DNA of 64,000 nucleotides from Sorghum bicolor (Eukaryota > Streptophyta > Magnoliopsida > Poales > Poaceae): positions 44,842,561 to 44,906,560 of the forward strand of contig NC_012873.2 in NCBI RefSeq assembly GCF_000003195.3, written 5' to 3'. A program made the translations under genes and the position numbers. The notes under the pieces are model-generated. The model saw only the letters and a list, made by a program, of their open reading frames with translations, ran no database searches and was not told where the DNA came from. Below, one piece after another: positions 13,216-56,879 of this stretch; the stretch's first letter is position 1; every line of letters begins with the position of its first letter.

Positions 13216-13894
13216 GCTAACACACGCTCGTGCCTGACACAGCACCACCGGACGCTCTAATGGTCCACACCGGACGCGTTCGGTGCACATGAGACTCGTG
13301 CGCAGAGAGCACCGCAAACTTGCAAGGTCACTGGACGCACACAAGCAGCCACACCGAACGCTGAGCCCAGCGTCCGATGCCTAGCAGTTAGAAACCCCTT
13401 ACGTGCACTTGCTGACGTCACGCATCACCGGACGCGTGAACAGTGTCCTGCCCACGTCCAGTGCCAGCGTCCACTGTACTCGGCTCACACACGCCGAGTC
13501 AGACACCTCACTGGACGCGCAGGGGCAGCGTCCGGTGCTACCAACACCTGCGTCCGGTGAGTGTTTCCCAGTGAGAAACAATCCTACAACTTCTCCAAAC
13601 ATCCCACTAGTGTAATAGAAAATATACACTTAATTTACTCAAAAGCGCATAACCCAAACCCCTCTCTACCCTAGGAACTCCACCTCCTTTGCAAAGTGTG
13701 CCAATATGTGTGTTAGCTTTTCACAAACATTTTCTCAAAGAAGTTAGCCTCTCAACTTGCCACGCCACTCGATCCTAATACATATGCAAAGTTAGATCAC
13801 TCAAGTGGCACTAGATGACCGATATGCAAACAAGTTTGCCCCTCTTGATAGTACGTCCATCTATCCTAAATCTAGTCATAAACTTCTCTACACA

Positions 13895-13899
13895 CCTAT
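13895..13899. repeat. TSD CCTAT, left, of the 21.65-kb gypsy element
   Basis: CCTAT before TGTTGACGG; repeated at 35550-35554 after ACCCAACA. The matching empty site in copia LTR I reads CTACACACTTATGATTGG at about 44655. Confidence 0.93.
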
Positions 13900-15548
13900 T
13901 GTTGACGGTCTTTAAGTATCAAATTTAATTATTAAATAAACAAAGAAAAGGATCCAAATGAAATCAACATCCAGACTTAGGGTTTTATCTGACAGAATTC
14001 CACAAGTTTTGGTGTTTGTCTATTTCTACAGGGGGTTATCAGAAAATACGGAAGAAAGGCCCACACGTCGGGATTACCTAGAGATATTAACGTGCCGCGT
14101 AATTATCTTACATCTAGAAGACTCCAGAAGCCACGAGACCGAAGCGGAGGCGAAACGGGGCCAGAGGCAGGGCGCCCGCCCTCCTGCCCTGGGTGCCCGC
14201 CCAATCTGAGAGTCCAGTCAAGACTCTGCTTCGTGGGAGATCTCCACCGACCTAACGGATCAAGGATAACCGTTCAATCTAAGTTGGTTTGATCCAACGG
14301 CCCATATTCACTTGAAGGGACTATAAAACCAGACCCCCTGGCCCCTGGAGGAGAGAGCCTCTCAACCCTAATTCATTATTCTCAAGGGAGAAGAAGCTTC
14401 TGATCAAGATTAGAGCCACCACATCAATTAGATATTTAGATTAGCATAGCTACATAGGATTAGAACTAGAAGGAGTCAATCTTCGATTGGTTTCCGGATC
14501 TGTTAAGAGGATTCTTGGTAATTCTCTAATTGTTCTTCTAATTATCTTTCTTCTTCAATATTATGAATATGACTTTGTTCTACTTCAATATATTGCTTAT
14601 GACTTTACTCTACTTGTTTATATTTAAGATTATATTGTTCTTAGTTTATCATAGTTATGTACTTGGCTTAGTTAGATTGGATCTATATACATGCTTAGGA
14701 TCGTATAGCGTTTATCCATCGGATCCATGGGTAAATGATAGATATTGTGTAGGCGTGGTGCTTATACCTTATTTATCTGCGATTGTACCCAATATGCCAG
14801 ATCGTGGGGTAGTTCGTGACAGTGACAGCTTCATTGATTCTTATATAGTCCCCCTCTCGTGTATTAGGCTGGCAGAGCAAAATTATTACAGGGGAGTGAT
14901 TGCTATGTTTCTCATTTACCTTGCTAATATCACTATGCATGGGCGTAGTCTTGTCTCACAATGATTGCTAAGTATGCTTGCACTAACTATGATAATGCTA
15001 GACTATATAGTTGAGAATAACTTAGAGAATATTCTTGTAGTTCGTTCTAATATCATGCTAATGACTTTCTAGAGTATCTAATTGAGGTGCTTATCATATT
15101 TAATATGTGGCTAAGTTATGATCAGAATAATTATCTTTGTCACTATTCATTATTTCATATATCTTTTATGTGACACTTATCCCTGTATGAAAGAGTTAGA
15201 TAAATGTTCTCAATTATACATGCAATGATAGATACTCAATCTCATATTCTATTCTGTAATCAATATTGATGATTGCTAATCCCTTCCCAGTGGTAAAAAT
15301 ATAAATAATGATACCTGGAATACTTCCCGGTTAAAATGCTACATCGGTATTAATCTGTGCGCTTGCAGATCCCATTCATTATTTATTTAGAAGAGCAATT
15401 GCATATTTCAATACCGCGTCTCTCATATCATGCTGGGGATGTCAACTTGGCTTAAGTGGTATGAGGGATAGGTTTGGCATTTTTGGCACCGTTACTAGAT
15501 TTAGAGAACTTTGTCTACTTTTGGTAATGATGTTAAGAATACCCAACA
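13900..15548 (+). repeat. 5' LTR of the 21.65-kb element
   Basis: 1649 bp, TGTTGACGGTC...AATACCCAACA. It contains a TATA box at 14322-14328, a GC-rich GGGCGCCCGCCC / GGGTGCCCGCCC pair at about 14168-14202, and an (A/T)-rich 3' half. Its length nearly equals that of the 3' LTR (1648 bp). Confidence 0.94.
14322..14328 (+). promoter_or_regulatory. LTR TATA box (TATAAAA)
   Basis: TATAAAA within GGGACTATAAAACCAGACC. The same motif at the same place occurs in every LTR and LTR fragment of this family, and a comparable TATATAA sits in the third LTR subfamily. The likely transcription start is 25-35 bp downstream. Confidence 0.7.
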
Positions 15549-15556
15549 AGCATTTT

Positions 15557-15573
15557 TGGCGCCGTTGCCGGGG
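15557..15573 (+). other. Primer-binding site, tRNA-Asp type
   Basis: TGGCGCCGTTGCCGGGG, 8 nt after the 5' LTR end. It is complementary to the 3' end (with CCA) of plant tRNA-Asp(GTC), the primer used by many Tat/Athila-type gypsy elements. No mismatch to that consensus is visible. Confidence 0.88.
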
Positions 15574-15762
15574 AAGGTTGATTACTAATCAGGAATGGAA
15601 TAAAGGAGTTTGAGTTATCATTCGCATCACTAATCTGATTGAGCTTATCTATTCTCTTATACAGTTTTACCCCGATATTTTCTATTTTATCTTATGCAGG
15701 GGAATGTATGAATAGAAGACATCTTCCCGGAAATTTTGTTGACAATCCCAAAGCGTTATTCA

Positions 15763-15885
15763 GAAGAACTAGAGCCAAGCTAAAGAAGAGATCATCAACA
15801 CTTCAGCAAGAAGCTTCATCCAATCAAGAAGAACTAGAGCCAAGCTAAAGAAGAGATCATCAACACTTCAGCAAGAAGCTTCACC
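15763..15885 (+). repeat. 65-bp-period tandem duplication in the gag leader
   Basis: Copies begin at 15763 and 15828, both reading GAAGAACTAGAGCCAAGC. The second diverges after about 57 bp. The period is not a multiple of three, so the duplication shifts frame between the upstream leader ORF (from 15639) and the gag frame. Confidence 0.88.
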
Positions 15886-15890
15886 GGAAC

Positions 15891-17048
15891 TTGTCTTCAG
15901 AGTTCGAAGCCATGGCGAACAAATCAATCCGCGAGTTCTCAGCTCCCACTATGGACAACATCCGCACTGGACCTGCTGCAGAGATCGATGACAACTTTGA
16001 GCTCAAGCCTGGACTTATCAACATGGTGCAATCCAACCAGTTCTGTGGGAAGGCACATGAAGATGCTAGTGCTCATCTACAACACTTCCTAGAGATTTGC
16101 AACACATTTACCATATCAGGAGTTTCCAAAGATGTTATACTACTTCACCTCTTCCCATTCTCACTGTTAGGGAGAGCGAAGCAGTGGTTCTACGCTACAA
16201 AGGAGAAGAATACTACGTGGGCACTCTGCTCAAGAAACTTCCTGGCTAAGTTCTTTCCCATGGGCAAGACCAATGCTCTCCGTGGGAAGATTACAAGTTT
16301 TCAGCAACAAAATGATGAATCTATTCCAGAAGCATGAGAGCGCTTTCAAGACTACATCCTAGAATGTCCCCATCATGGAATGGAGAGTTGGCTATTGATG
16401 CAGTCGTTTTATCATGGGCTCGGCAACAGTGCCCGAGAGACCATGGATGCTGCAGCTGGAGGAGCATTCTTATCACTTACTATACCACAAGCCACAGATC
16501 TTGTGGAGAAGATGGCGTCCAATCAAGGCTGGAATGAAGAGAGGACCCAGACACGCAAGAGAGGTGGAGGTATGCATCAGCTGAAGGAGGTAGACATGCT
16601 ATCTGCAAAGCTAGACCTGCTCATGAAGAAGCTCGCTGATAGAGCTGGAGATAAGAAAGAAGTTATGCACATCTACGACTCTCACATGACTTGTGAGGAG
16701 TGTGGAGATACTGGACACTCAGGCAATCACTGCCCTGAGATGCTTGAGGATGTGAACTACATCAACAATAACAACAACAACTACTACAACCGTCCTCAAC
16801 AAAATGAAGGTTGGAATCAACAGAGGCCTAACTACTCAGGTAATTATCAAGGTAATAATTCTTACAACAATACTAATAATTTTCCACCTTTGAGAGAGTT
16901 AGTGTCTAATCAAGGAAAGCTAATGGATAACCTATCTAAGAAATTGGCATCTAATGATAAAATGCTAGAAAATATAAATAATAGAATGGATAATTTTTCT
17001 ACTGCCATCAAGAATCAAATTAGCTTTAATAAAATGATTGAATCTTAG
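15891..17048 (+). pseudogene. Gypsy Gag (capsid and nucleocapsid), with in-frame stop
   Basis: One reading frame runs from 15891 to the TAG at 17046-17048, broken by a TGA at 16335-16337. The first part (MANKSIREFSAPT near 15912, FELKPGLINMVQ, HLQHFLEICNTF, LFPFSLLGRAKQWFY, FLAKFFPMGKTNALRGKI) is the capsid-like retrotransposon gag domain of the Athila-type lineage. The second part carries a CCHC zinc knuckle, C-x2-C-x4-H-x4-C, at 16692-16733 (CEECGDTGHSGNHC), followed by an Asn-rich linker. The TGA falls where related Gags have a Trp, consistent with G-to-A decay. Gag assembles the cytoplasmic particle and packages RNA. As it stands full-length Gag cannot be made without readthrough. Confidence 0.85.
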
Positions 17049-18347
17049 TTAAATCAAATAGTTGCTGCTGTTCCTGCTACTAACCCCGGTATACCATCAC
17101 AACCGGAAGGATTAGAATCTGCAAATCTTGTAGACATGTTTGATGCAGGTAATAATTGGAGTAACCCCGTCACTGAATTCAATACTGACCTTCTGCCGGT
17201 CAAGAGAGGTGATCGAGGACGCCCCGTCATCCCGATCTCCATCGGCATGGTGGACGTCCCAGAAGCACTCTGTGACTTTGGCTCCAGTGTCAACATTATA
17301 CCCAGGGTACTCTATGAAAAATTCTTTACATATCCTTTATTAGAAACAACGATGTGTTTGCAGTTTGCAGATCAGACGATAAGTTTTCCAAAAGGAATAT
17401 TGAGAAATCTTTGTGTCCGAGTTGGTACCTTATATGCCCCAGCAGACTTCGTAGTAGTAGAGATCGGAAATGATGAGAGGGCACCCATCAACTTAGGGAG
17501 GCCATTCTTGAACACCACGGGAGCTATCATCTACGCTAGCGCTGCCAAGATCAGTTTCTACATCAAAGGGAGGAAGGAGACGTTTTTCTTCAAGAACAAG
17601 ACTAAACAAATCCCAGATCAATCCAGACATGAATCAAGGAAGAGGACCAACAGGAGGAACAGGAACAAGCAAGTATGGACCGAGTCAGCTAAGATGGTCA
17701 CTGTAGTTCATAGAGGCCAAGATAACCAACTTAAGTCACCGTTTTTGACCAAGAAGGACGACCCAGGAATGCCAAGCATCTACTGCTCCATAAATGGATA
17801 CAGCTTTTACAAGACATTTTGCGACACCGGATCGGGCGTCAACATAATGGCCGCAGTCACCTATCGGCTCTTGTTCAGAACCATGCCCCTAAGACCAACA
17901 TACATTCAGCTCCAGATGGCAGATCAGACATTTCGAGAAGTTAAAGGAACAGTAACTGATGTCCCAGTCAAAATAGACGATCATTTTGTCTACACAGACT
18001 TTCAAGTTATTGACATGGGAGAAGATGAGTACGACCCACCCATCATCCTTGGAAGACCGTTCCTCAGCACCGTTAAAGCAATCATCTACATTGGAACCGG
18101 AGAAGTCCATATGCACTTCCCCTGAGAGAAGGTACGCCATTATTTTACTGACCCTAACTATATCGTTGAAGAATCTAAGCAGGTGAGGAAACGACGCAAC
18201 CGCAACCAGATGGGGCAAATCATCAAGGACGGATGGGCAGACTATGAAGGAGAAGTTGTAAGGTCAGAAGACGTAGAGTTTAAAGAGAACTATCCAGAGG
18301 AGACTGAAGCACCGAGTCAGGTATGGAAAGAGAAGATAATTACATAA
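17049..18347 (+). pseudogene. Two tandem retropepsin-like protease domains
   Basis: This is in the same frame as gag, separated from it only by the TAG at 17046. Domain 1 has the active-site-like CDFGSSVNIIP (Asp codon 17274-17276) and ends NLGRPFLNTTGAIIYASAAK. A basic linker follows (about 17600-17690). Domain 2 has CDTGSGVNIMAAVTY (Asp codon 17823-17825, canonical DTG) and ends ILGRPFLSTVKAIIY. Retropepsins normally work as homodimers of one such domain; here two are fused in one chain. A TGA at 18123-18125 stops the frame; beyond it the same frame stays open to TAA 18345-18347 with residues also seen in the related element near 40200. No RT follows. Confidence 0.8.
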
Positions 18348-20561
18348 AGAGGAGGCGCTGCCGGAAGTACCGACTCCGCCACCCAACGAACCTCAGGACA
18401 ATTGAGAAAATGGAGAGTCCCATTCGGAGGACTTAAAAACACCGAACGCCTTGCCAAGACGTAAACTTGGTAGTTATCCTTTCCCTTTCAATTATTTAAA
18501 ATAGTTTGCTTAGTTACTTATGTTCATGCTATCCTAAAAAGAAAATAAAAATGTGAAAAACAGTAAGCCCCATGTGAGTAGACGAGTGGCATAAAACCCA
18601 TAAGTACATTCACTGTGGTGGCATAAAAATAAAATAAATATTTCATTTCTGCTTTATAAAATGAAAATATAAAAACAGGGAGTAATATTTATTGAGGAGT
18701 CTCAACATGATAAAGGCTAGATATTTATGCTAACACTTAATCAGTTCCACAAGCTTTGTTGTCTATTTGAGCTCCACAGAATTCAAGAATCAAGAAGACT
18801 AGCAGACGAAGGACATTCTAATCGCTGTCAGAATGCTGCTGACTTTCAAATACACCTCTGCCACCTGCTAGCTACATCAAGAGAAATTATGTCAAAATTC
18901 AGCTTGGGGGAGAGCACCCCCATTTATACCGATAAGTATTTCTATCTATCTATCTTTATACTTATACTATATTAAAATATAAATATACATAAACTAGGAA
19001 AAACCAAATAAATATTTTGTGCTTATATATATCTTTTGCTTAGTATGTTTAATAAATAAATAAAGTGGCTATGCTAATCTGTATCTAAATAAAACTCAAG
19101 CATGGATATGATGAATAGTTGCTCTGCCTAATTTGCAAATTTTAAGTTCTCTCTCAAGTTTAGACATAATTGTTATAATTTAAAGCTTGCTCTAGACCTA
19201 AACTTGTGGGATGAAAACTTGATCTGAAGTCTAAGTTGTTAACGGATATGATATGGGAAGGTTGAGCTGTTGTTTATCTGTTCCTAGAGATGCTAGAATT
19301 CTGGAGAATTTTATCTTTGAAAATCTTTAAAATGTTGCATGATGAGTTCCTGTATGATGAGAGTTTAAATTCCTACCACAGCCATATATACATGCTTGCT
19401 AGACTTTGAGCCACACATTTACTATTTACTGCTTATGAGCATTGAGTGTGGTCAAGCTGTGTAGACCCTTAGGAGTTTGTCATGTGGTTAAATCAAGATT
19501 TCACTTGCACGTTCACTCATATATGCTACTTCTACTCCGGAAGTATCATTCACATATATCCACCCATTTCCATCTCCAGAACCACCCAAAAATATTCTAC
19601 TCCTAACCCGGGAGAGAATAGACAAAAATATTTCTGTTTTTCCTTTATGAAATAAATGCTCAAGTTATCTTGTTACTACCGCTTGCTATATTATCTCAAG
19701 AGATGAGTGCTCTAAAAAAAAGATACGAGGAAATAAAAAGGAGCAAGTGCTCGGAACCTCGAAAGAAACGAAAAAAGTGAGACGAGAGGTAAAAATGGAC
19801 AAGTGTCCGACAGTAGAATTAGGGGTACAAGATACCCACGTGAGAGAAAAGAAAAAGAAGAGCATCTCATTCTCCTCATAAAAATTCAAAAAGCAAGGAA
19901 GGTATGTATCCCCTCAAAAGAGCAAAGTAGAATTAGACTTTCACCATTGTTATCACCATCATCACCATACACCATTCAATCGCCACACATGCACATCTTG
20001 ATTAAACTTATTGACTTGTTTCTTTGGATCCATGGTTTGACTATACAATAAATGTCTTGTAAGTATGTATACTTTATCTCCCACCTATGAGCTCTAGATA
20101 TTAAAGCCTTATTAGAGTAGGGTGAGAGAGAAGGCAATGTCACTATGCTTTATACCACAAATACTACATATCTTGAGAGAAGGCATATACCATCACTGCC
20201 TTGGTAAGGATCCAGAAATACCACAAAAGAGAGATATGAGAGAATCATACAAGGAATCTCTGAGTTTTATTTGAAAATCTACAAAAACTCTAGAGCTATA
20301 GCTGATCAAGAATAAGAGACATGGCACTTGGCTAGACTGTTCTATCTTTTAACTACTCAAGACAGAAGTGACGGTTACAAGTCCCATGGTGAAGGTAAAG
20401 TAAGTAAGTTTTAAGTCTTGACAGTTTACTCTAACTCAGAGATGAGATCTTATTTTAAAAGCATGTGTACTGTCAATTTTTAAAGATATTGCAACAACTT
20501 CTAATCCATTGCTGAGTCTGTCCTTGCTCAGGGACGAGCAAGAGGTAAGCTTGGGGGAGTT

Positions 20562-21440
20562 TGTTGACGGTCCTTAAGTATTAAATTTAATTATTAAATA
20601 AACAAAGAAAAGGATCCAAATGAAATCAACATCCAGACTTAGGGTTTTATGTGACATAATTCCACAAGTTTTGGTGTTTGTCTATTTCTGCAGGGGGTTA
20701 TCAGGAAATACGGAAGAAAGGCCCACACGTCGGGATTACATAGAGATATTAACGTGCCGCGTAATTATCTTACATCTAGAAGACTCCAGAAGCCATGAGA
20801 CCGAAGCGGAGGCGAAACGGGGCCAGAGGCGGGGCGCCCGCCCTCCTGCCCTGGGCGCCCACCCCCTCAGAGAGTCCAATCAGGACTCTGCTTCGTGGGA
20901 GATCTCCACCGACCTAAAGGATCAAGGATAACCGTTCAATCTAAGTCGGTTTGATCCAACGGCCCATATTCACTTGAAGGGACTATAAAACCAGACCCCC
21001 TGGCCCCTGGAGGAGAGAGCCTCTCAACCCTAATTCATTATTCTCAAGGGAGAAGAAGCTTCTGATCAAGATTAGAGCCACCACATCAATTAGATATCTA
21101 GATTAGCATAGCTACATAGGATTAGAACTAGAAGGAGTCAATCTTTGATTGGTTTCCGGATCTGTCAAGAGGATTCTTGGTAATTCTCTAATTGTTCTTC
21201 TAATTATCTTTGTTCTTCAATATTATGAATATGACTTTGTTCTACTTCAATATATTGCTTATGACTTTGCTCTACTTGTTTATATTCAAGATTATATTGT
21301 TCTTAGTTTATCATAGTTATGTACTTGGCTTAGTTAGATTGGATCTATATACATGCTTTGGATCGTATAGCGTTTATCCATCAGATCCATGGGTAAATGA
21401 TAGATATTGTGTAGGCGTGGTGCTTATACCGTATTTATCT
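20562..21440 (+). repeat. Truncated LTR copy, array unit 1
   Basis: First 879 bp of the family LTR, from TGTTGACGG to ...GTATTTATCT, with TATAAAA at 20984-20990 and the polypurine tract GGGGGAG just before it (20553-20559). It lacks the LTR's 3' 770 bp and is fused directly to the start of unit 2 with no shared bases at the joint. Confidence 0.93.
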
Positions 21441-23896
21441 TCCATATGCACTTCCCCTGAGAGAAGGTACGCCATTATTTTACTGACCCTAACTATATCG
21501 TTGAAGAATCTAAGCAGGTGAGGAAACGACGCAACCGCAACCAGATGAGGCAAATCATCAAGGACGGATGGGCAGACTATGAAGGAGAAGTTGTAAGGTC
21601 AGAAGACGTAGAGTTTAAAGAGAACTATCCAGAGGAGACTGAAGCACCGAGTCAGGTATGGAAAGAGAAGATAATTACATAAAGAGGAGGCGCTGCCGGA
21701 AGTACCGACTCCGCCACCCAACGAACCTCAGGACAATTGAGAAAATGGAGAGTCCCATTCGGAGGACTTAAAAACACCGAACGCCTTGCCAAGACGTAAA
21801 CTTGGTAGTTATCCTTTCCCTTTCAATTATTTAAAATAGTTTGCTTAGTTACTTATGTTCATGCTATCCTAAAAAGAAAATAAAAATGTGAAAAACAGTA
21901 AGCCCCATGTGAGTAGACGAGTGGCATAAAACCCATAAGTACATTCACTGTGGTGGCATAAAAATAAAATAAATATTTCATTTCTGCTTTATAAAATGAA
22001 AATATAAAAACAGGGAGTAATATTTATTGAGGAGTCTCAACATGATAAAGGCTAGATATTTATGCTAACACTTAATCAGTTCCACAAGCTTTGTTGTCTA
22101 TTTGAGCTCCACAGAATTCAAGAATCAAGAAGACTAGCAGACGAAGGACATTCTAATCGCTGTCAGAATGCTGCTGACTTTCAAATACACCTCTGCCACC
22201 TGCTAGCTACATCAAGAGAAATTATGTCAAAATTCAGCTTGGGGGAGAGCACCCCCATTTATACCGATAAGTATTTCTATCTATCTATCTTTATACTTAT
22301 ACTATATTAAAATATAAATATACATAAACTAGGAAAAACCAAATAAATATTTTGTGCTTATATATATCTTTTGCTTAGTATGTTTAATAAATAAATAAAG
22401 TGGCTATGCTAATCTGTATCTAAATAAAACTCAAGCATGGATATGATGAATAGTTGCTCTGCCTAATTTGCAAATTTTAAGTTCTCTCTCAAGTTTAGAC
22501 ATAATTGTTATAATTTAAAGCTTGCTCTAGACCTAAACTTGTGGGATGAAAACTTGATCTGAAGTCTAAGTTGTTAACGGATATGATATGGGAAGGTTGA
22601 GCTGTTGTTTATCTGTTCCTAGAGATGCTAGAATTCTAGAGAATTTTATCTTTGAAAATCTTTAAAATGTTGCATGATGAGTTCCTGTATGATGAGAGTT
22701 TAAATTCCTACCACAGCCATATATACATGCTTGCTAGACTTTGAGCCACACATTTACTATTTACTGCTTATGAGCATTGAGTGTGGTCAAGCTGTGTAGA
22801 CCCTTAGGAGTTTGTCATGTGGTTAAATCAAGATTTCACTTGCACGTTCACTCATATATGCTACTTCTACTCCGGAAGTATCATTCACATATATCCACCC
22901 ATTTCCATCTCCAGAACCACCCAAAAATATTCTACTCCTAACCCGGGAGAGAATAGACAAAAATATTTCTGTTTTTCCTTTATGAAATAAATGCTCAAGT
23001 TATCTTGTTACTACCGCTTGCTATATTATCTCAAGAGATGAGTGCTCTAAAAAAAAGATACGAGGAAATAAAAAGGAGCAAGTGCTCGGAACCTCGAAAG
23101 AAACGAAAAAAGTGAGACGAGAGGTAAAAATGGACAAGTGTCCGACAGTAGAATTAGGGGTACAAGATACCCACGTGAGAGAAAAGAAAAAGAAGAGCAT
23201 CTCATTCTCCTCATAAAAATTCAAAAAGCAAGGAAGGTATGTATCCCCTCAAAAGAGCAAAGTAGAATTAGACTTTCACCATTGTTATCACCATCATCAC
23301 CATACACCATTCAATCGCCACACATGCACATCTTGATTAAACTTATTGACTTGTTTCTTTGGATCCATGGTTTGACTATACAATAAATGTCTTGTAAGTA
23401 TGTATACTTTATCTCCCACCTATGAGCTCTAGATATTAAAGCCTTATTAGAGTAGGGTGAGAGAGAAGGCAATGTCACTATGCTTTATACCACAAATACT
23501 ACATATCTTGAGAGAAGGCATATACCATCACTGCCTTGGTAAGGATCCAGAAATACCACAAAAGAGAGATATGAGAGAATCATACAAGGAATCTCTGAGT
23601 TTTATTTGAAAATCTACAAAAACTCTAGAGCTATAGCTGATCAAGAATAAGAGACATGGCACTTGGCTAGACTGTTCTATCTTTTAACTACTCAAGACAG
23701 AAGTGACGGTTACAAGTCCCATGGTGAAGGTAAAGTAAGTAAGTTTTAAGTCTTGACAGTTTACTCTAACTCAGAGATGAGATCTTATTTTAAAAGCATG
23801 TGTACTGTCAATTTTTAAAGATATTGCAACAACTTCTAATCCATTGCTGAGTCTGTCCTTGCTCAGGGACGAGCAAGAGGTAAGCTTGGGGGAGTT

Positions 23897-24775
23897 TGTT
23901 GACGGTCCTTAAGTATTAAATTTAATTATTAAATAAACAAAGAAAAGGATCCAAATGAAATCAACATCCAGACTTAGGGTTTTATGTGACATAATTCCAC
24001 AAGTTTTGGTGTTTGTCTATTTCTGCAGGGGGTTATCAGGAAATACGGAAGAAAGGCCCACACGTCGGGATTACATAGAGATATTAACGTGCCGCGTAAT
24101 TATCTTACATCTAGAAGACTCCAGAAGCCATGAGACCGAAGCGGAGGCGAAACGGGGCCAGAGGCGGGGCGCCCGCCCTCCTGCCCTGGGCGCCCACCCC
24201 CTCAGAGAGTCCAATCAGGACTCTGCTTCGTGGGAGATCTCCACCGACCTAAAGGATCAAGGATAACCGTTCAATCTAAGTCGGTTTGATCCAACGGCCC
24301 ATATTCACTTGAAGGGACTATAAAACCAGACCCCCTGGCCCCTGGAGGAGAGAGCCTCTCAACCCTAATTCATTATTCTCAAGGGAGAAGAAGCTTCTGA
24401 TCAAGATTAGAGCCACCACATCAATTAGATATCTAGATTAGCATAGCTACATAGGATTAGAACTAGAAGGAGTCAATCTTTGATTGGTTTCCGGATCTGT
24501 CAAGAGGATTCTTGGTAATTCTCTAATTGTTCTTCTAATTATCTTTGTTCTTCAATATTATGAATATGACTTTGTTCTACTTCAATATATTGCTTATGAC
24601 TTTGCTCTACTTGTTTATATTCAAGATTATATTGTTCTTAGTTTATCATAGTTATGTACTTGGCTTAGTTAGATTGGATCTATATACATGCTTTGGATCG
24701 TATAGCGTTTATCCATCAGATCCATGGGTAAATGATAGATATTGTGTAGGCGTGGTGCTTATACCGTATTTATCT
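23897..24775 (+). repeat. Truncated LTR copy, array unit 2
   Basis: Same 879-bp LTR segment; TATAAAA at 24319-24325. It shares with unit 1 a T in GACATAATTCC, where units 3-5 and the 5' LTR have G. Confidence 0.93.
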
Positions 24776-27231
24776 TCCATATGCACTTCCCCTGAGAGAA
24801 GGTACGCCATTATTTTACTGACCCTAACTATATCGTTGAAGAATCTAAGCAGGTGAGGAAACGACGCAACCGCAACCAGATGAGGCAAATCATCAAGGAC
24901 GGATGGGCAGACTATGAAGGAGAAGTTGTAAGGTCAGAAGACGTAGAGTTTAAAGAGAACTATCCAGAGGAGACTGAAGCACCGAGTCAGGTATGGAAAG
25001 AGAAGATAATTACATAAAGAGGAGGCGCTGCCGGAAGTACCGACTCCGCCACCCAACGAACCTCAGGACAATTGAGAAAATGGAGAGTCCCATTCGGAGG
25101 ACTTAAAAACACCGAACGCCTTGCCAAGACGTAAACTTGGTAGTTATCCTTTCCCTTTCAATTATTTAAAATAGTTTGCTTAGTTACTTATGTTCATGCT
25201 ATCCTAAAAAGAAAATAAAAATGTGAAAAACAGTAAGCCCCATGTGAGTAGACGAGTGGCATAAAACCCATAAGTACATTCACTGTGGTGGCATAAAAAT
25301 AAAATAAATATTTCATTTCTGCTTTATAAAATGAAAATATAAAAACAGGGAGTAATATTTATTGAGGAGTCTCAACATGATAAAGGCTAGATATTTATGC
25401 TAACACTTAATCAGTTCCACAAGCTTTGTTGTCTATTTGAGCTCCACAGAATTCAAGAATCAAGAAGACTAGCAGACGAAGGACATTCTAATCGCTGTCA
25501 GAATGCTGCTGACTTTCAAATACACCTCTGCCACCTGCTAGCTACATCAAGAGAAATTATGTCAAAATTCAGCTTGGGGGAGAGCACCCCCATTTATACC
25601 GATAAGTATTTCTATCTATCTATCTTTATACTTATACTATATTAAAATATAAATATACATAAACTAGGAAAAACCAAATAAATATTTTGTGCTTATATAT
25701 ATCTTTTGCTTAGTATGTTTAATAAATAAATAAAGTGGCTATGCTAATCTGTATCTAAATAAAACTCAAGCATGGATATGATGAATAGTTGCTCTGCCTA
25801 ATTTGCAAATTTTAAGTTCTCTCTCAAGTTTAGACATAATTGTTATAATTTAAAGCTTGCTCTAGACCTAAACTTGTGGGATGAAAACTTGATCTGAAGT
25901 CTAAGTTGTTAACGGATATGATATGGGAAGGTTGAGCTGTTGTTTATCTGTTCCTAGAGATGCTAGAATTCTGGAGAATTTTATCTTTGAAAATCTTTAA
26001 AATGTTGCATGATGAGTTCCTGTATGATGAGAGTTTAAATTCCTACCACAGCCATATATACATGCTTGCTAGACTTTGAGCCACACATTTACTATTTACT
26101 GCTTATGAGCATTGAGTGTGGTCAAGCTGTGTAGACCCTTAGGAGTTTGTCATGTGGTTAAATCAAGATTTCACTTGCACGTTCACTCATATATGCTACT
26201 TCTACTCCGGAAGTATCATTCACATATATCCACCCATTTCCATCTCCAGAACCACCCAAAAATATTCTACTCCTAACCCGGGAGAGAATAGACAAAAATA
26301 TTTCTGTTTTTCCTTTATGAAATAAATGCTCAAGTTATCTTGTTACTACCGCTTGCTATATTATCTCAAGAGATGAGTGCTCTAAAAAAAAGATACGAGG
26401 AAATAAAAAGGAGCAAGTGCTCGGAACCTCGAAAGAAACGAAAAAAGTGAGACGAGAGGTAAAAATGGACAAGTGTCCGACAGTAGAATTAGGGGTACAA
26501 GATACCCACGTGAGAGAAAAGAAAAAGAAGAGCATCTCATTCTCCTCATAAAAATTCAAAAAGCAAGGAAGGTATGTATCCCCTCAAAAGAGCAAAGTAG
26601 AATTAGACTTTCACCATTGTTATCACCATCATCACCATACACCATTCAATCGCCACACATGCACATCTTGATTAAACTTATTGACTTGTTTCTTTGGATC
26701 CATGGTTTGACTATACAATAAATGTCTTGTAAGTATGTATACTTTATCTCCCACCTATGAGCTCTAGATATTAAAGCCTTATTAGAGTAGGGTGAGAGAG
26801 AAGGCAATGTCACTATGCTTTATACCACAAATACTACATATCTTGAGAGAAGGCATATACCATCACTGCCTTGGTAAGGATCCAGAAATACCACAAAAGA
26901 GAGATATGAGAGAATCATACAAGGAATCTCTGAGTTTTATTTGAAAATCTACAAAAACTCTAGAGCTATAGCTGATCAAGAATAAGAGACATGGCACTTG
27001 GCTAGACTGTTCTATCTTTTAACTACTCAAGACAGAAGTGACGGTTACAAGTCCCATGGTGAAGGTAAAGTAAGTAAGTTTTAAGTCTTGACAGTTTACT
27101 CTAACTCAGAGATGAGATCTTATTTTAAAAGCATGTGTACTGTCAATTTTTAAAGATATTGCAACAACTTCTAATCCATTGCTGAGTCTGTCCTTGCTCA
27201 GGGACGAGCAAGAGGTAAGCTTGGGGGAGTT

Positions 27232-28110
27232 TGTTGACGGTCCTTAAGTATTAAATTTAATTATTAAATAAACAAAGAAAAGGATCCAAATGAAATCAAC
27301 ATCCAGACTTAGGGTTTTATGTGACAGAATTCCACAAGTTTTGGTGTTTGTCTATTTCTGCAGGGGGTTATCAGGAAATACGGAAGAAAGGCCCACACGT
27401 CGGGATTACATAGAGATATTAACGTGCCGCGTAATTATCTTACATCTAGAAGACTCCAGAAGCCATGAGACCGAAGCGGAGGCGAAACGGGGCCAGAGGC
27501 GGGGCGCCCGCCCTCCTGCCCTGGGCGCCCACCCCCTCAGAGAGTCCAATCAGGACTCTGCTTCGTGGGAGATCTCCACCGACCTAAAGGATCAAGGATA
27601 ACCGTTCAATCTAAGTCGGTTTGATCCAACGGCCCATATTCACTTGAAGGGACTATAAAACCAGACCCCCTGGCCCCTGGAGGAGAGAGCCTCTCAACCC
27701 TAATTCATTATTCTCAAGGGAGAAGAAGCTTCTGATCAAGATTAGAGCCACCACATCAATTAGATATCTAGATTAGCATAGCTACATAGGATTAGAACTA
27801 GAAGGAGTCAATCTTTGATTGGTTTCCGGATCTGTCAAGAGGATTCTTGGTAATTCTCTAATTGTTCTTCTAATTATCTTTGTTCTTCAATATTATGAAT
27901 ATGACTTTGTTCTACTTCAATATATTGCTTATGACTTTGCTCTACTTGTTTATATTCAAGATTATATTGTTCTTAGTTTATCATAGTTATGTACTTGGCT
28001 TAGTTAGATTGGATCTATATACATGCTTTGGATCGTATAGCGTTTATCCATCAGATCCATGGGTAAATGATAGATATTGTGTAGGCGTGGTGCTTATACC
28101 GTATTTATCT
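27232..28110 (+). repeat. Truncated LTR copy, array unit 3
   Basis: Same 879-bp LTR segment; TATAAAA at 27654-27660. It has the ancestral-looking GACAGAATTCC and GGTAATTCTC states. Confidence 0.93.
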
Positions 28111-30566
28111 TCCATATGCACTTCCCCTGAGAGAAGGTACGCCATTATTTTACTGACCCTAACTATATCGTTGAAGAATCTAAGCAGGTGAGGAAACGAC
28201 GCAACCGCAACCAGATGAGGCAAATCATCAAGGACGGATGGGCAGACTATGAAGGAGAAGTTGTAAGGTCAGAAGACGTAGAGTTTAAAGAGAACTATCC
28301 AGAGGAGACTGAAGCACCGAGTCAGGTATGGAAAGAGAAGATAATTACATAAAGAGGAGGCGCTGCCGGAAGTACCGACTCCGCCACCCAACGAACCTCA
28401 GGACAATTGAGAAAATGGAGAGTCCCATTCGGAGTACTTAAAAACACCGAACGCCTTGCCAAGACGTAAACTTGGTAGTTATCCTTTCCCTTTCAATTAT
28501 TTAAAATAGTTTGCTTAGTTACTTATGTTCATGCTATCCTAAAAAGAAAATAAAAATGTGAAAAACAGTAAGCCCCATGTGAGTAGACGAGTGGCATAAA
28601 ACCCATAAGTACATTCACTGTGGTGGCATAAAAATAAAATAAATATTTCATTTCTGCTTTATAAAATGAAAATATAAAAACAGGGAGTAATATTTATTGA
28701 GGAGTCTCAACATGATAAAGGCTAGATATTTATGCTAACACTTAATCAGTTCCACAAGCTTTGTTGTCTATTTGAGCTCCACAGAATTCAAGAATCAAGA
28801 AGACTAGCAGACGAAGGACATTCTAATCGCTGTCAGAATGCTGCTGACTTTCAAATACACCTCTGCCACCTGCTAGCTACATCAAGAGAAATTATGTCAA
28901 AATTCAGCTTGGGGGAGAGCACCCCCATTTATTCCGATAAGTATTTCTATCTATCTATCTTTATACTTATACTATATTAAAATATAAATATACATAAACT
29001 AGGAAAAACCAAATAAATATTTTGTGCTTATATATATCTTTTGCTTAGTATGTTTAATAAATAAATAAAGTGGCTATGCTAATCTGTATCTAAATAAAAC
29101 TCAAGCATGGATATGATGAATAGTTGCTCTGCCTAATTTGCAAATTTTAAGTTCTCTCTCAAGTTTAGACATAATTGTTATAATTTAAAGCTTGCTCTAG
29201 ACCTAAACTTGTGGGATGAAAACTTGATCTGAAGTCTAAGTTGTTAACGGATATGATATGGGAAGGTTGAGCTGTTGTTTATCTGTTCCTAGAGATGCTA
29301 GAATTCTGGAGAATTTTATCTTTGAAAATCTTTAAAATGTTGCATGATGAGTTCCTGTATGATGAGAGTTTAAATTCCTACCACAGCCATATATACATGC
29401 TTGCTAGACTTTGAGCCACACATTTACTATTTACTGCTTATGAGCATTGAGTGTGGTCAAGCTGTGTAGACCCTTAGGAGTTTGTCATGTGGTTAAATCA
29501 AGATTTCACTTGCACGTTCACTCATATATGCTACTTCTACTCCGGAAGTATCATTCACATATATCCACCCATTTCCATCTCCAGAACCACCCAAAAATAT
29601 TCTACTCCTAACCCGGGAGAGAATAGACAAAAATATTTCTGTTTTTCCTTTATGAAATAAATGCTCAAGTTATCTTGTTACTACCGCTTGCTATATTATC
29701 TCAAGAGATGAGTGCTCTAAAAAAAAGATACGAGGAAATAAAAAGGAGCAAGTGCTCGGAACCTCGAAAGAAACGAAAAAAGTGAGACGAGAGGTAAAAA
29801 TGGACAAGTGTCCGACAGTAGAATTAGGGGTACAAGATACCCACGTGAGAGAAAAGAAAAAGAAGAGCATCTCATTCTCCTCATAAAAATTCAAAAAGCA
29901 AGGAAGGTATGTATCCCCTCAAAAGAGCAAAGTAGAATTAGACTTTCACCATTGTTATCACCATCATCACCATACACCATTCAATCGCCACACATGCACA
30001 TCTTGATTAAACTTATTGACTTGTTTCTTTGGATCCATGGTTTGACTATACAATAAATGTCTTGTAAGTATGTATACTTTATCTCCCACCTATGAGCTCT
30101 AGATATTAAAGCCTTATTAGAGTAGGGTGAGAGAGAAGGCAATGTCACTATGCTTTATACCACAAATACTACATATCTTGAGAGAAGGCATATACCATCA
30201 CTGCCTTGGTAAGGATCCAGAAATACCACAAAAGAGAGATATGAGAGAATCATACAAGGAATCTCTGAGTTTTATTTGAAAATCTACAAAAACTCTAGAG
30301 CTATAGCTGATCAAGAATAAGAGACATGGCACTTGGCTAGACTGTTCTATCTTTTAACTACTCAAGACAGAAGTGACGGTTACAAGTCCCATGGTGAAGG
30401 TAAAGTAAGTAAGTTTTAAGTCTTGACAGTTTACTCTAACTCAGAGATGAGATCTTATTTTAAAAGCATGTGTACTGTCAATTTTTAAAGATATTGCAAC
30501 AACTTCTAATCCATTGCTGAGTCTGTCCTTGCTCAGGGACGAGCAAGAGGTAAGCTTGGGGGAGTT

Positions 30567-31445
30567 TGTTGACGGTCCTTAAGTATTAAATTTAATTATT
30601 AAATAAACAAAGAAAAGGATCCAAATGAAATCAACATCCAGACTTAGGGTTTTATGTGACAGAATTCCACAAGTTTTGGTGTTTGTCTATTTCTGCAGGG
30701 GGTTATCAGGAAATACGGAAGAAAGGCCCACACGTCGGGATTACATAGAGATATTAACGTGCCGCGTAATTATCTTACATCTAGAAGACTCCAGAAGCCA
30801 TGAGACCGAAGCGGAGGCGATACGGGGCCAGAGGCGGGGTGCCCGCCCTCCTGCCCTGGGCGCCCACCCCCTCAGAGAGTCCAATCAGGACTCTGCTTCG
30901 TGGGAGATCTCCACCGACCTAAAGGATCAAGGATAACCGTTCAATCTAAGTCGGTTTGATCCAACGGCCCATATTCACTTGAAGGGACTATAAAACCAGA
31001 CCCCCTGGCCCCTGGAGGAGAGAGCCTCTCAACCCTAATTCATTATTCTCAAGGGAGAAGAAGCTTCTGATCAAGATTAGAGCCACCACATCAATTAGAT
31101 ATCTAGATTAGCATAGCTACATAGGATTAGAACTAGAAGGAGTCAATCTTTGATTGGTTTCCGGATCTGTCAAGAGGATTCTTGGTAGTTCTCTAATTGT
31201 TCTTCTAATTATCTTTGTTCTTCAATATTATGAATATGACTTTGTTCTACTTCAATATATTGCTTATGACTTTGCTCTACTTGTTTATATTCAAGATTAT
31301 ATTGTTCTTAGTTTATCGTAGTTATGTACTTGGCTTAGTTAGATTGGATCTATATACATGCTTTGGATCGTATAGCGTTTATCCATCAGATCCATGGGTA
31401 AATGATAGATATTGTGTAGGCGTGGTGCTTATACCGTATTTATCT
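30567..31445 (+). repeat. Truncated LTR copy, array unit 4
   Basis: Same 879-bp segment; TATAAAA at 30989-30995. It shares GGTAGTTCTC with the full 3' LTR (units 1-3 and the 5' LTR have GGTAATTCTC). Private changes include GCGATACGG and GGGGTGCCCG. Confidence 0.93.
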
Positions 31446-33892
31446 TCCATATGCACTTCCCCTGAGAGAAGGTACGCCATTATTTTACTGACCCTAACTA
31501 TATCGTTGAAGAATCTAAGCAGGTGAGGAAACGACGCAACCGCAACCAGATGAGGCAAATCATCAAGGACGGATGGGCAGACTATGAAGGAGAAGTTGTA
31601 AGGTCAGAAGACGTAGAGTTTAAAGAGAACTATCCAGAGGAGACTGAAGCACCGAGTCAGGTATGGAAAGAGAAGATAATTACATAAAGAGGAGGCGCTG
31701 CCGGAAGTACCGACTCCGCCACCCAACGAACCTCAGGACAATTGAGAAAATGGAGAGTCCCATTCGGAGGACTTAAAAACACCGAACGCCTTGCCAAGAC
31801 GTAAACTTGGTAGTTATCCTTTCCCTTTCAATTATTTAAAATAGTTTGCTTAGTTACTTATGTTCATGCTATCCTAAAAAGAAAATAAAAATGTAAAAAA
31901 CAGTAAGCCCCATGTGAGTAGACGAGTGGCATAAAACCCATAAGTACATTCACTGTGGTGGCATAAAAATAAAATAAATATTTCATTTCTGCTTTATAAA
32001 ATGAAAATATAAAAACAGGGAGTAATATTTATTGAGGAGTCTCAACATGATAAAGGCTAGATATTTATGCTAACACTTAATCAGTTCCACAAGCTTTGTT
32101 GTCTATTTGAGCTCCACAGAATTCAAGAATCAAGAAGACTAGCAGACGAAGGACATTCTAATCGCTGTCAGAATGCTGCTGACTTTCAAATACACCTCTG
32201 CCACCTGCTAGCTACATCAAGAGAAATTATGTCAAAATTCAGCTTCGGGGAGAGCACCCCCATTTATACCGATAAGTATTTCTATCTATCTATCTTTATA
32301 CTTATACTATATTAAAATATAAATATACATAAACTAGGAAAAACCAAATAAATATTTTGTGCTTATATATATCTTTTGCTTAGTATGTTTAATAAATAAA
32401 TAAAGTGGCTATGCTAATCTGTATCTAAATAAAACTCAAGCATGGATATGATGAATAGTTGCTCTGCCTAATTTGCAAATTTTAAGTTCTCTCTCAAGTT
32501 TAGACATAATTGTTATAATTTAAAGCTTGCTCTAGACCTAAACTTGTGGGATGAAAACTTGATCTGAAGTCTAAGTTGTTAACGGATATGATATGGGAAG
32601 GTTGAGCTGTTGTTTATCTGTTCCTAGAGATGCTAGAATTCTGGAGAATTTTATCTTTGAAAATCTTTAAAATGTTGCATGATGAGTTCCTGTATGATGA
32701 GAGTTTAAATTCCTACCACAGCCATATATACATGCTTGCTAGATTTTGAGCCACACATTTACTATTTACTGCTTATGAGCATTGAGTGTGGTCAAGCTGT
32801 GTAGACCCTTAGGAGTTTGTCATGTGGTTAAATCAAGATTTCACTTGCACGTTCACTCATATATGCTACTTCTACTCCGGAAGTATCATTCACATATATC
32901 CACCCATTTCCATCTCCAGAACCACCCAAAAATATTCTACTCCTAACCCGGGAGAGAATAGACAAAAATATTTCTGTTTTTCCTTTATGAAATAAATGCT
33001 CAAGTTATCTTGTTACTACCGCTTGCTATATTATCTCAAGAGATGAGTGCTCTAAAAAAAAGATACGAGGAAATAAAAAGGAGCAAGTGCTCGGAACCTC
33101 GAAAGAAACGAAAAAAGTGAGACGAGAGGTAAAAATGGACAAGTGTCCGACAGTAGAATTAGGGGTACAAGATACCCACGTGAGAGAAAAGAAAAAGAAG
33201 AGCATCTCATTCTCCTCATAAAAATTCAAAAAGCAAGGAAGGTATGTATCCCCTCAAAAGAGCAAAGTAGAATTAGACTTTCACCATTGTTATCACCATC
33301 ATCACCATACACCATTCAATCGCCACACATGCACATCTTGATTAAACTTATTGACTTGTTTCTTTGGATCCATGGTTTGACTATACAATAAATGTCTTGT
33401 AAGTATGTATACTTTATCTCCCACCTATGAGCTCTAGATATTAAAGCCTTATTAGAGTAGGGTGAGAGAGAAGGCAATGTCACTATGCTTTATACCACAA
33501 ATACTACATATCTTGAGAGAAGGCATATACCATCACTGCCTTGGTAAGGATCCAGAAATACCACAAAAGAGAGATATGAGAGAATCATACAAGGAATCTC
33601 TGAGTTTTATTTGAAAATCTACAAAAACTCTAGAGCTATAGCTGATCAAGAATAAGAGACATGGCACTTGGCTAGACTGTTCTATCTTTTAACTACTCAA
33701 GACAGAAGTGACGGTTACAAGTCCCATGGTGAAGGTAAAGTAAGTAAGTTTTAAGTCTTGACAGTTTACTCTAACTCAGAGATGAGATCTTATTTTAAAA
33801 GCATGTGTACTGTCAATTTTTAAAGATATTGCAACAACTTCTAATCCATTGCTGAGTCTGTCCTTGCTCAGGGACGAGCAAGAGGTAAGCTT

Positions 33893-33899
33893 GGGGGAG
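33893..33899 (+). other. Polypurine tract of the 21.65-kb element
   Basis: GGGGGAG in AAGCTTGGGGGAGTT, 2 nt before the 3' LTR; primer for plus-strand DNA synthesis. The same tract precedes every truncated LTR in the array. Confidence 0.8.
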
Positions 33900-33901
33900 T
33901 T

Positions 33902-35549
33902 TGTTGACGGTCCTTAAGTATTAAATTTAATTATTAAATAAACAAAGAAAAGGATCCAAATGAAATCAACATCCAGACTTAGGGTTTTATGTGACAGAAT
34001 TCCACAAGTTTTGGTGTTTGTCTATTTCTGCAGGGGGTTATCAGGAAATACGGAAGAAAGGCCCACACGTCGGGATTACATAGAGATATTAACGTGCCGC
34101 ATAATTATCTTACATCTAGAAGACTCCAGAAGCCATGAGACCGAAGCGGAGGCGAAACGGGGCCAGAGGCGGGGCGCCCGCCCTCCTGCCCTGGGCGCCC
34201 ACCCCCTCAGAGAGTCCAATCAGGACTCTGCTTCGTGGGAGATCTCCACCGACCTAAAGGATCAAGGATAACCGTTCAATCTAAGTCGGTTTGATCCAAC
34301 GGCCCATATTCACTTGAAGGGACTATAAAACCAGACCCCCTGGCCCCTGGAGGAGAGAGCCTCTCAACCCTAATTCATTATTCTCAAGGGAGAAGAAGCT
34401 TCTGATCAAGATTAGAGCCACCACATCAATTAGATATCTAGATTAGCATAGCTACATAGGATTAGAACTAGAAGGAGTCAATCTTTGATTGGTTTCCGGA
34501 TCTGTCAAGAGGATTCTTGGTAGTTCTCTAATTGTTCTTCTAATTATCTTTGTTCTTCAATATTATGAATATGACTTTGTTCTACTTCAATATATTGCTT
34601 ATGACTTTGCTCTACTTGTTTATATTCAAGATTATATTGTTCTTAGTTTATCATGTTATGTACTTGGCTTAGTTAGATTGGATCTATATACATGCTTTGG
34701 ATCGTATAGCGTTTATCCATCAGATCCATGGGTAAATGATAGATATTGTGTAGGCGTGGTGCTTATACCGTATTTATCTGCGATTGTACCCAATATGCCA
34801 GATCGTGGGGTAGTTCGTGATAGTGACAGCTTCATTGATTCTTATATAGTCCCCCTCTCGTGTATTGGGCTGGCAGAGCAACATTATTACAGGGGAGTGA
34901 TTGCTATGTTTCTCATTTACCTTGCTAATATCACTATACATGGGCGTAGTCTTGTCTCACAATGATTGCTAAGTATGCTTGCACTAACTATGATAATGCT
35001 AGACTATATAGTTGAGAATAACTTAGGGAATATTCTTGTAGTTCGTTCTAATACCATGCTAATGACTTTCTAGAGTATCTAATTGAGGTGCTTATCATAT
35101 TTAATATGTGGCTAAGTTATGATCAGAATAATTATCTTTGTCACTATTCATTATTTCATATATCTTTTATGTGACACTTATCCCTATATGAAAGAGTTAG
35201 ATAAATGTTCTCAATTATACATGCAATGATAGATACTCAATCTCATATTCTATTCTGTAATCAATATTGATGATTGCTAATCCCTTCCCAGTGGTAAAAA
35301 TATAAATAACGATACCTGGAATACTTCCCGGTTAAAATGCTACATCGGTATTAATCTGTGCGCTTGCAGATCCCATTCATTATTTATTTAGAAGAGCAAT
35401 TGCATATTTCAATACCGCGTCTCTCATATCATGCTGGGGATGACAACTTGGCTTAAGTGGTATGAGGGATAGGTTTGGCATTTTTTGCACCGTTACAAGA
35501 TTTAGAGAACTTAGTCTACTTTTGGTAATGATGTTAAGAATACCCAACA
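33902..35549 (+). repeat. 3' LTR of the 21.65-kb element
   Basis: 1648 bp, TGTTGACGGTCC...AATACCCAACA, followed by the CCTAT duplication. Its first 878 bp also form the end of array unit 5 (TATA box 34324-34330). Confidence 0.94.
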
Positions 35550-36419
35550 CCTATGACCGGTGAAATGGAAATACCCTAGGATATACCTTTGCCTTGCACA
35601 TTCTATTCCATCTCCTCCGATGTTGATCCAACACATGCACCAACCAATCACCAAATGATATGAACCACTTCATATCATCACATGACCGTATTGGTTCATC
35701 GATCTTGACCTCACTTGCTCTTCACTGTTGCCTCGGTCCATCGGCACCAAGTCTTGCTCAAGATTCACTATCACACGCGGTCCCTCGCTTCAAAGCCTCT
35801 GACTTGCCCTTCACTCTTGCAACCGGTCCATCGAGCCAAGCCTCATCTTGATCTTCTCCACCTTGGTCACATGACTCCATGTCATGTCTCATATGCAATG
35901 AGCTCCTCCATCATCACATAATCACATGTGGACTAATCTCCTGTGTATCTCACATAAACACTATTAGTCTACCTAATTTGTCACTCAATTACCAAAACCA
36001 AACAAGGACCTTTCACTAGGGCTATATAATCAAGCCTGCACCCCCTTGAAGCCAAGTCAGATTCTAAGAGCTGAAGAGCTAGAAACCCTAATTCATATCT
36101 CCACCAAGATCTAAGCCAGTAATCAAGAAGGTTAGTGCTCCATAAGATCTAGTCTTATAATTAGAGATAGAGAGATAGAGTGAGAGAGTAGAGTTCTAGA
36201 GGAGTTTTAGCCTAATCGTTCTTCAAGTTTTCAACTCTACTTTGAGTGGTTTGATCTTGGTAGCTCTTTGCTTGAAGTGGTATTTTGTAGTGTAAGCGTG
36301 GCGCTTAGACTAAGTTTACTTGCATTTTCCCTATTTTCTGGATATGGTGGTAGTTCATGAAGGTGACTTTATAGCTTTGTTGATTCCTATGTAGTCCACC
36401 TCACATTAATAGGTTTTGG

Positions 36420-36424: not shown

Positions 36425-37704
36425 TGTTGGGTATTTTAAACGCAAACAGAAAAAATCCGCAAGCGCACGGATACCGATGTAGCCTTCACCCGGGAGTATT
36501 CCAGAGTATCAATTTTCCACAGAGAACGTGAGTGTACTAATTAAGATCCAAGATCGCCCAAGGATAACTATATAATTATTTTTGGTGGGAAGAGTGGGAG
36601 TTTCCTGAGAGTTCTCTAGTTGATCTAAGAATCAAGAATTACTTCAAGATTATCTATTTTGGGACATCAGAGCACTAACCACAGAAAGAGATGAGAAGGG
36701 GGCTAGGAAGGTCTGACTACGGTCCTACAAACACCGATCCGAACGTGGTGGAATACGTCGACCGTTAGGGCTGTCACTACCCTAAGGCTACCACAACAAT
36801 CCGCAGGATTTGGTGCAATTCCAGGTAATGGCAAGACTAAACACCACATCTAATCTATTAATTACTACTCTAGCGTTATAAAGACTAGAGCACTTGATGC
36901 AAGCAGGAATCCAATAAATAACTTGAATGTAAATAAAAGTAATTAAAGAACTCAGGAATTATGAATTGAAGAACCTAGAGAACGATGAAGAACGAACCAG
37001 TTGCTGCAAAAGTACAATGTTGAGGAAGATCCGACAGATCCGGCTCCTCCTCCGCTCTCCTCTTCTCTCTCCCTATTTTCTAGATTACAACTAGAACTAA
37101 CTAGAACTAGAACTAGAGGAACTAGAACTAGAACTAGATGAGCTAGAACTAGAACTAGATGAACTAGAGGTAGAACTAGAAGAACTAGAGGGATCCTCTC
37201 TACTTGGATGAAGAATTGAAACCCTAGCTTTGATTCTGTAGAAGAGGTATGATCTCCAGGGGCCAGGGGGTCTGGTTTTATAGTCCCTTCAAGTGAATCT
37301 GGGCCGTCAGATCAAACCGACATTAATCGCACGGTTTTCCTTGATCCTTTAGGTCGGTGGATCATAATCCGCGAAACGTGTCCTGATTGGGCACTGTAGC
37401 TGGGCGGGCGCCCAGGAGAGTTGGGCGGGCGCCCTGCCTCCGAGCCCGATTTCCTTCCCGTTCGTTCCTGTGGCTTCTGGAGTCTTCTAGATGATAGAAA
37501 ATTACGCGACACGTTAATATCTCTATGTAAACCCGACATGTGGGCCTTTCTTCCTTATTTCCTGATAACCCCCTACAGAAATAGACAAACACCAAAACTC
37601 GTGGAATTCTATCAGATAAAACCCTAAGTCTAGGTGTTGGTTGCATTTGGATCCTTTTCTATGATTAGTTGATGGTTAAATGTGAGCATTAAGGACCGTC
37701 AACA
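36425..37704 (-). repeat. 3' LTR of the 36425-44136 element
   Basis: 1280 bp, TGTTGGGTATT...GACCGTCAACA on the plus strand. It contains an ACTAGA-rich minisatellite (about 37084-37192), an inverted TATA box (TTTTATA 37276-37282) and the double GGGCGGGCGCCC at about 37402-37434. Confidence 0.93.
37084..37192. repeat. AGAACTAG minisatellite in LTR
   Basis: About 105 bp of irregular AACTAGAACTAGA repeats with GAGG and GATG spacers. The partner LTR has the same array at about 43516-43624. In the other subfamilies this site holds only a single AGAACTAGAAGG. Confidence 0.85.
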
Positions 37705-56769: not shown

Positions 56770-56879
56770 AAAATTAACAATATCTGCATACTAGGGGTCA
56801 GATCTATTGATTCTGTAGAGCATATCGTCCTGGAGTGAGTCATTGATGGTAGTTCCTATGGATTCTCAAATTGCATTCT

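Follow-up and report, generated by a model that had tools for sequence, protein, structure and literature searches.

The tandem array considered here lies in a 64,000-nucleotide stretch of Sorghum bicolor DNA (contig NC_012873.2; C4:44842561-44906560), hereafter the window, inside a retrotransposon with long terminal repeats (LTRs). The closest described systems are CRM1TR and CRM4TR of maize, pericentromeric repeats whose tandem units join part of the LTR of a Ty3/gypsy element to untranslated sequence (PMC3648361). In the sections of that paper on their joints, no short direct repeats are reported that would explain them by one simple deletion; the model put forward is that illegitimate recombination founds such an array and gene conversion enlarges it, with unequal exchange as a possible contributor, and an LTR-UTR~LTR structure (UTR, untranslated region) was proposed by Sharma et al. 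2013 as the founder of both (PMC3648361). Transcription of CRM4TR is also reported (PMC3648361). In Lathyrus sativus, Ogre-derived satellites start within LTR retrotransposons, close to the 3′ end of the element, and at times they expand, chiefly in primary constrictions (Vondrak et al. 2019, PMC7004042). The sobo repeat of a wild potato, with monomers of 4.7 kb over about 360 kb, is related to an LTR retrotransposon, as are the potato centromere repeats (PMC3648361). Tandem LTR retrotransposons sharing internal LTRs are reported to be common in rice, with a highly polymorphic unit number (Morales-Diaz et al. 2025, PMC11899658). For sorghum, the satellites named in the relevant part of a repeat study carry unit numbers between 123 and 2192, and a satellite of about 3.3 kb is not among them (PMC8407070).

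Like CRM1TR and CRM4TR, the sorghum array is pericentromeric, and its units combine part of an LTR with untranslated sequence at a joint that no short direct repeat explains (PMC3648361). However, the maize monomers measure about 0.7-1.4 kb and come from the LTR and adjoining UTR, the arrays are at least about 4 and 1 million years (My) old, respectively, with 187 and 39 full-length monomers, and the sections describing them mention no parent element around them (PMC3648361). Here the unit is 3.3 kb, takes in the 3′-terminal part of the internal sequence together with the start of the LTR, and is present in five copies within a parent that keeps both LTRs and its target-site duplication (TSD). 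The Lathyrus sativus arrays likewise start inside an LTR element near its 3′ end, but their short 3′UTR tandem repeats belong to dispersed element families (PMC7004042), whereas here one copy of those examined carries a large unit that reaches into the LTR. With sobo and the potato centromere repeats our locus shares a kilobase monomer related to an LTR retrotransposon, though it has five units where they form long arrays (PMC3648361). Finally, a single insertion with a TSD and more than one LTR copy recalls the tandem LTR retrotransposons, whose units are LTR-internal modules (PMC11899658), while the units here are cut down and carry an illegitimate joint. In the literature on this kind of repeat, searched without aiming at the locus itself, we recognised no report of this array. 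That satellites can stem from LTR or UTR fragments, given as background in an initial annotation made from the letters of the window, agrees with the published accounts (PMC3648361, PMC7004042). Such arrays are already established, and what this locus adds is a very young case that its parent element still encloses.

Results

Five units joined in the same way

Five head-to-tail units, four of 3335 bp and one of 3334 bp, fill positions 18106-34779 of the window (16.7 kb; Table 1). Each consists of 20 bp from the end of the gag-pro frame, then the 3′ non-coding region, after it the polypurine tract, and finally LTR positions 1-879. Each unit begins 20 bp before the frame end, the stop codon of the native frame ends at 18125, and in unit 1 the polypurine tract region (20547-20561) is followed by LTR positions 1-879 at 20562-21440. 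The unit holds U3 with its TATA box (LTR position 423), and presumably part of R too; the LTR end and the primer site lie outside it. Native gag-pro stands directly before unit 1, and unit 5 passes natively into the remaining 3′ LTR.

The joint, GTATTTATCTTCCATATGC, begins at 21431, 24766, 28101 and 31436, always with a spacing of 3335 bp. All four internal joints are identical, and by eye the base on each side differs from the other source sequence, leaving no microhomology. Self-BLAST aligns 18106-31445 with 21441-34779 at 99.85% over 13,340 columns, and a chance origin of the array is excluded, since 13 kb are alike at 99.8%. Joint spacing and self-BLAST thus bear out the initial annotation, which had described five head-to-tail units with a joint that is the same each time and has no shared bases, apart from the one base missing in the last unit. 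DNA folding shows nothing special at either breakpoint (z-scores of 0.04 and 0.89). As a poly(A) site, the breakpoint was rejected, no AATAAA being present near LTR position 879.

The array is therefore of the CRM1TR/CRM4TR kind in two respects: its monomer is drawn wholly from the LTR and adjoining non-coding part of one element, with a coding share of only 20 bp of frame, and one illegitimate joint without microhomology recurs between all monomers (4/4). Satellite DNA in the usual sense consists of long arrays of many monomers, and five units over 16.7 kb do not amount to that.

The parent element

A TG...CA LTR pair, a polypurine tract and a TSD identify the parent as an LTR retrotransposon. 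A single insertion event is supported by the sequence, because the CCTAT TSDs match and a paralogous empty site is present at 44472-45124; in the self-BLAST of the window, 13706-13899 match 44472-44665 and 35547-36017 match 44658-45124. The array thus lies inside one LTR retrotransposon, as had been proposed. It is not a tandem LTR retrotransposon with alternating complete LTRs and internal regions, because its inner LTR copies end at position 879 and gag-pro is single. The length of the element minus four extra units is about 8.3 kb.

According to the list of open reading frames (ORFs), gag-pro is one frame, 15849-18125, with two in-frame stop codons. The Pfam scan took ORFs of at least 150 aa, of which the element has four. 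It placed a gag domain (PF03732) within 15849-16334 and a protease-like match (PF09668) in 17049-18122, the latter at E=0.0084 and 16.7 bits, under the cut-off of 26. The unit anatomy of the initial annotation, from the frame end through the 3′ non-coding region and polypurine tract to LTR 1-879, stands; its name "protease frame" for the end of gag-pro is, on this match below the cut-off, only weakly supported. No pol domain, reverse transcriptase (RT) included, was found in the four scanned ORFs, and the element does not have the full coding capacity of an autonomous one (gag, protease, RT, RNase H, integrase). A homologue search with the protease-like frame returned 364 proteins; the 120 listed were mostly unnamed, and the search gave no lineage. 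The element may belong to the Athila lineage and may have a tRNA-Asp-like primer site.

Table 1. Features of the array, its parent element and related sequences, in window positions
Feature	Position	Strand	Evidence
LTR element, gag-pro type	13900-35549	+	TG...CA ends, LTR pair, polypurine tract, TSD
TSD CCTAT, 5′ copy	13895-13899	.	sequence read; same as 35550-35554
5′ LTR, 1649 bp, TGTTG...CAACA, TATAAA at LTR position 423	13900-15548	+	
Leader and gag-pro region	15549-18125	+	ORF list, Pfam scan
Unit 1, 3335 bp	18106-21440	+	joint spacing, self-BLAST, alignment
Unit 2, 3335 bp	21441-24775	+	joint spacing, self-BLAST, alignment
Unit 3, 3335 bp	24776-28110	+	alignment, comparison with upstream relative
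Unit 4, 3335 bp	28111-31445	+	joint spacing, self-BLAST, alignment
Unit 5, 3334 bp, with a single-base deletion	31446-34779	+	self-BLAST, alignment
3′ LTR, 1648 bp; unit 5 covers its initial 878 bp	33902-35549	+	
TSD CCTAT, 3′ copy	35550-35554	.	
Paralogous empty site, host sequence without insertion	44472-45124	+	self-BLAST
Related LTR, used as outgroup	47113-48765	+	no matched internal sequence of the element's family beside it

Relatives in the genome

The genome search for the junction suggested in the initial annotation was run with a 19-base exact joint: in the 709-Mb genome it occurs four times, always in this array, and its reversed control gave zero matches. Within the 210 kb examined upstream, a complete array-free relative with the same modules lies about 134 kb away (window coordinates -128822 to -120537). 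It is unbroken across both breakpoints, its gag-pro running into the 3′ region and its LTR continuing past position 879. When the unit was searched for genome-wide, 39 of 12,855 candidates were scored and 41 matches were listed; the window's own array was not among them, so that this search cannot by itself exclude arrays elsewhere. Near full-length matches at 92-96% identity make up 34 of the 41. No two of these lie less than 20 kb apart, and one on C1 is found about 5 kb from partial matches of a deletion derivative (see below). For the initial 20 of the 34, 120 bases were checked at both unit ends, and the native sequence continues downstream in 20/20 and upstream in 20/20. To judge from these sequences, the array most likely belongs to, and arose in, this copy, because a relative is unrearranged, the flanks checked are native and the exact joint is found nowhere else. 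Furthermore, in 284 kb examined (2500 N included), 3335 at 18106-34633 is the one period from 400 to 12,000 bp that recurs in many copies; the spacing of 11 other listed period rows, which were not each checked, suggests LTR pairs or separate copies.

In the relative at C1:61522734-61525683 (L027, C1:61521001-61527000), LTR 1-587 is joined to 3′ region 1611-2457, and an LTR follows. Read from this order of parts, it is a deletion derivative whose joint is independent of that of the array, comparable to the LTR-UTR~LTR founder structure of the maize arrays (PMC3648361), and its joint indicates that an event of the proposed founding type does occur in this family.

Divergence of units and LTRs

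Pairs of units differ at 0.06-0.27% (2 to 9 substitutions), with 14 variable columns in all, and the 5′ and 3′ LTRs at 40 of 1648 sites, or 2.43% (Poisson 95% interval 1.73-3.31%). The LTR divergence is as first estimated, while that of the units is on average somewhat above the 0.1% given there. Assuming 1.3e-8 substitutions per site and year, the insertion would be about 0.95 My old (0.61 or 1.26 My from the separate LTR parts) and the most different pair, units 4 and 5, would date to about 0.10 My (0.05-0.20). If units and insertion were of equal age, the Poisson probability of at most 9 differences over 3334 bp would be 3e-24 at 2.43%, and 2e-13 at the 1.56% of the slower LTR part. The units are thus far more alike than equal age allows, and the array is young or homogenised; the corresponding claim, that it arose well after insertion or is being homogenised, is upheld.

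Unit 3 matches the upstream relative at 13 of the 14 columns that vary. The exception is column 823, the one possible derived change of unit 3, at which the relative shares the state of unit 4. With changes polarised by this relative, one derived change is shared by units 1 and 2 and another by units 4 and 5, and private changes number 1, 1, 0, 5 and 5 in units 1 to 5, one of those in unit 5 being its 1-base deletion. The pattern of sharing, with two informative sites, fits copying between neighbouring units.

Other features of the element and its surroundings

The leader of the element contains a small second tandem duplication (15762-15883, 65 bp, 1.9 copies, 100% alike), and over the matching stretch the leader of the upstream relative is about 50 bp shorter. 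Antisense to gag, Rfam snoR71 (RF00097) matches at 16275-16381 (-) with 66.8 bits (cut-off 40), and the upstream relative gives a like match, also antisense to gag (L015:3509-3615, -; 64.5 bits); this family may take in gag sequence of retrotransposons instead of a true small nucleolar RNA.

The LTRs of a neighbouring element, at 36425-37704 and 42857-44136, are 98.5% alike. What this element has in common with the array's parent, at about 84%, is the 3′ region together with LTR positions 1-451, the LTR match being 13900-14350 against 37254-37704 (-) and 43686-44136 (-). The shared part of the LTR extends to about 25 bp beyond the TATA box, and no match was found for the remaining LTR; perhaps this reflects modular exchange at the U3/R boundary. 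A separate element at 51936-61223 (-) has RT, integrase and gag domains (Pfam). Its ends, 51936-52888 and 60268-61223, are about 91% alike, with short parts about 70-82% like U3 of the parent's family, and by these resemblances the element may be a distantly related autonomous one. A TAATA array of about 89 copies occupies 577-1026, and 2500 N, possibly an assembly gap, stand at C4:44906561-44909060, directly after the window.

Discussion

We think it probable that the array arose late and in place, from one joint, and grew by homologous exchange. A gag-pro-type LTR element would have inserted once, and much later a homology-free joint would have formed within it, between LTR position 879 and the gag-pro frame end. 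The joint is observed, and the repair pathway that made it we infer. The joint would have turned the 3′ region plus the LTR start into a direct repeat. Out-of-register homologous recombination, as exchange or as conversion, involving either sister chromatids or homologues, would then have raised this repeat to five units.

As to the order of steps, we tentatively favour a deletion-first course, to which we give somewhat less than an even chance. One allele would first have lost, by an illegitimate deletion of the ordinary sort, the stretch between a point within its 5′ LTR and the 3′ region. Unequal exchange through the LTR with an intact allele would then have produced a complete 5′ half with two units behind it, and more unequal exchange would have added the others. 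A sister-chromatid end-joining duplication, or a deletion in an LTR-internal-LTR-internal-LTR tandem copy, would lead to an identical sequence, and one allele cannot tell these routes from the deletion-first course.

Several points weigh against this account. A single five-unit allele was compared, the alleles with 1, 2 and 3 units and the deletion allele being hypothetical, and the copy number, which comes from the assembly alone, is to be treated as unproven. The uniqueness of the array joint refers to exact matches only. The breakpoints of the C1 joint differ from those of the array, and its degree of homology is not cleanly readable. The sharing between neighbours involves two sites and has a chance of about 0.16 by our own arithmetic. 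Finally, units 4 and 5 hold 10 of the 12 private changes, and because of this pile-up either the growth of the array was not clock-even or part of the private changes are sequencing errors.

Could the array have been present at insertion or soon after, for example through template switching between co-packaged RNAs, and have been homogenised since by gene conversion or unequal exchange? The similarity of the units alone does not distinguish homogenisation of an older array from recent birth. Moreover, the 3′ LTR has fewer derived changes: with five outgroup LTRs, the 40 LTR differences divide into 23 derived on the 5′ side, 12 on the 3′ side and 5 unresolved, and with a single outgroup the skew inside the array part is 19:7 (p=0.029). 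However, it also appears outside the array part (8:4 with five outgroups, against 15:8 inside; 7:3 with one), so that the array need not be its cause; it is mild, and we leave it without explanation. The joint also lies about 430 bp past the transcription start presumed from the TATA box, an unexpected place for strand transfer, and it is found exactly in no other genomic copy and in 0 of the 20 relatives tested. An early origin is thus unlikely in our view.

In a tree of seven LTRs, with five others as outgroups, the 5′ and 3′ LTRs of the element are sisters (support 96/94), so there is no sign of a foreign 3′ half, and foreign conversion of that half, which we had considered, is unsupported. 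LTR positions 1-879 diverge between the two LTRs at 3.2% and the rest at 1.6%. The 5′ LTR differs from the LTR at 47113, probably a solo LTR, by 7.5% and 4.2% in the same parts, and the contrast is smaller against the LTR of the upstream relative (5.7% and 5.0%). The initial part of the LTR is generally the faster one, and the higher value in the array part is in keeping with this.

An assembly artefact, with a different unit number at the true locus, possibly one or two, is a little less probable again. The assembly is presumably sorghum BTx623 v3, Sanger-based. As far as the account in PMC6242865 goes, the BTx623 reference was Sanger-sequenced, its version 3.0.1 is incomplete in pericentromeric regions, and large assembly errors are probable on some chromosomes, 6 and 7 being named; this quality, and the N that start right after the window, speak for an artefact. 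On the other hand, 14 columns distinguish the units, which are therefore not mere copies of one consensus, the window itself contains zero N, near-identical repeats in Sanger-based assemblies collapse more often than they multiply, and the joint itself requires at least two units. Growth by a re-inserted extrachromosomal circle or rolling-circle product in place of chromatid exchange, listed as a possible contribution to the CRM arrays in PMC3648361, is the least probable alternative and is unneeded here, the units sharing one register and one place and their exact joint occurring nowhere else.

A late origin in place from one joint remains the reading that we prefer. The earlier term "satellite seed" is a fair description of the locus, although nothing here shows growth past five copies or spread. 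It is possible, though on balance we doubt it, that the locus is a satellite within about 0.1 My of its birth, inside a parent that can still be recognised and dated, the genome containing the C1 deletion derivative and unrearranged siblings besides. If so, the whole path would be laid out, from deletion joint through LTR-mediated exchange with an intact allele to growth. In other respects the locus is one further case of a route documented in maize, potato and legumes. How satellites begin has mostly had to be inferred from arrays that are old and large. At this locus the parent element and its TSD, unrearranged siblings and the few initial units are still readable, so that a comparison of accessions can test both the founding joint and the order in which the units were copied.

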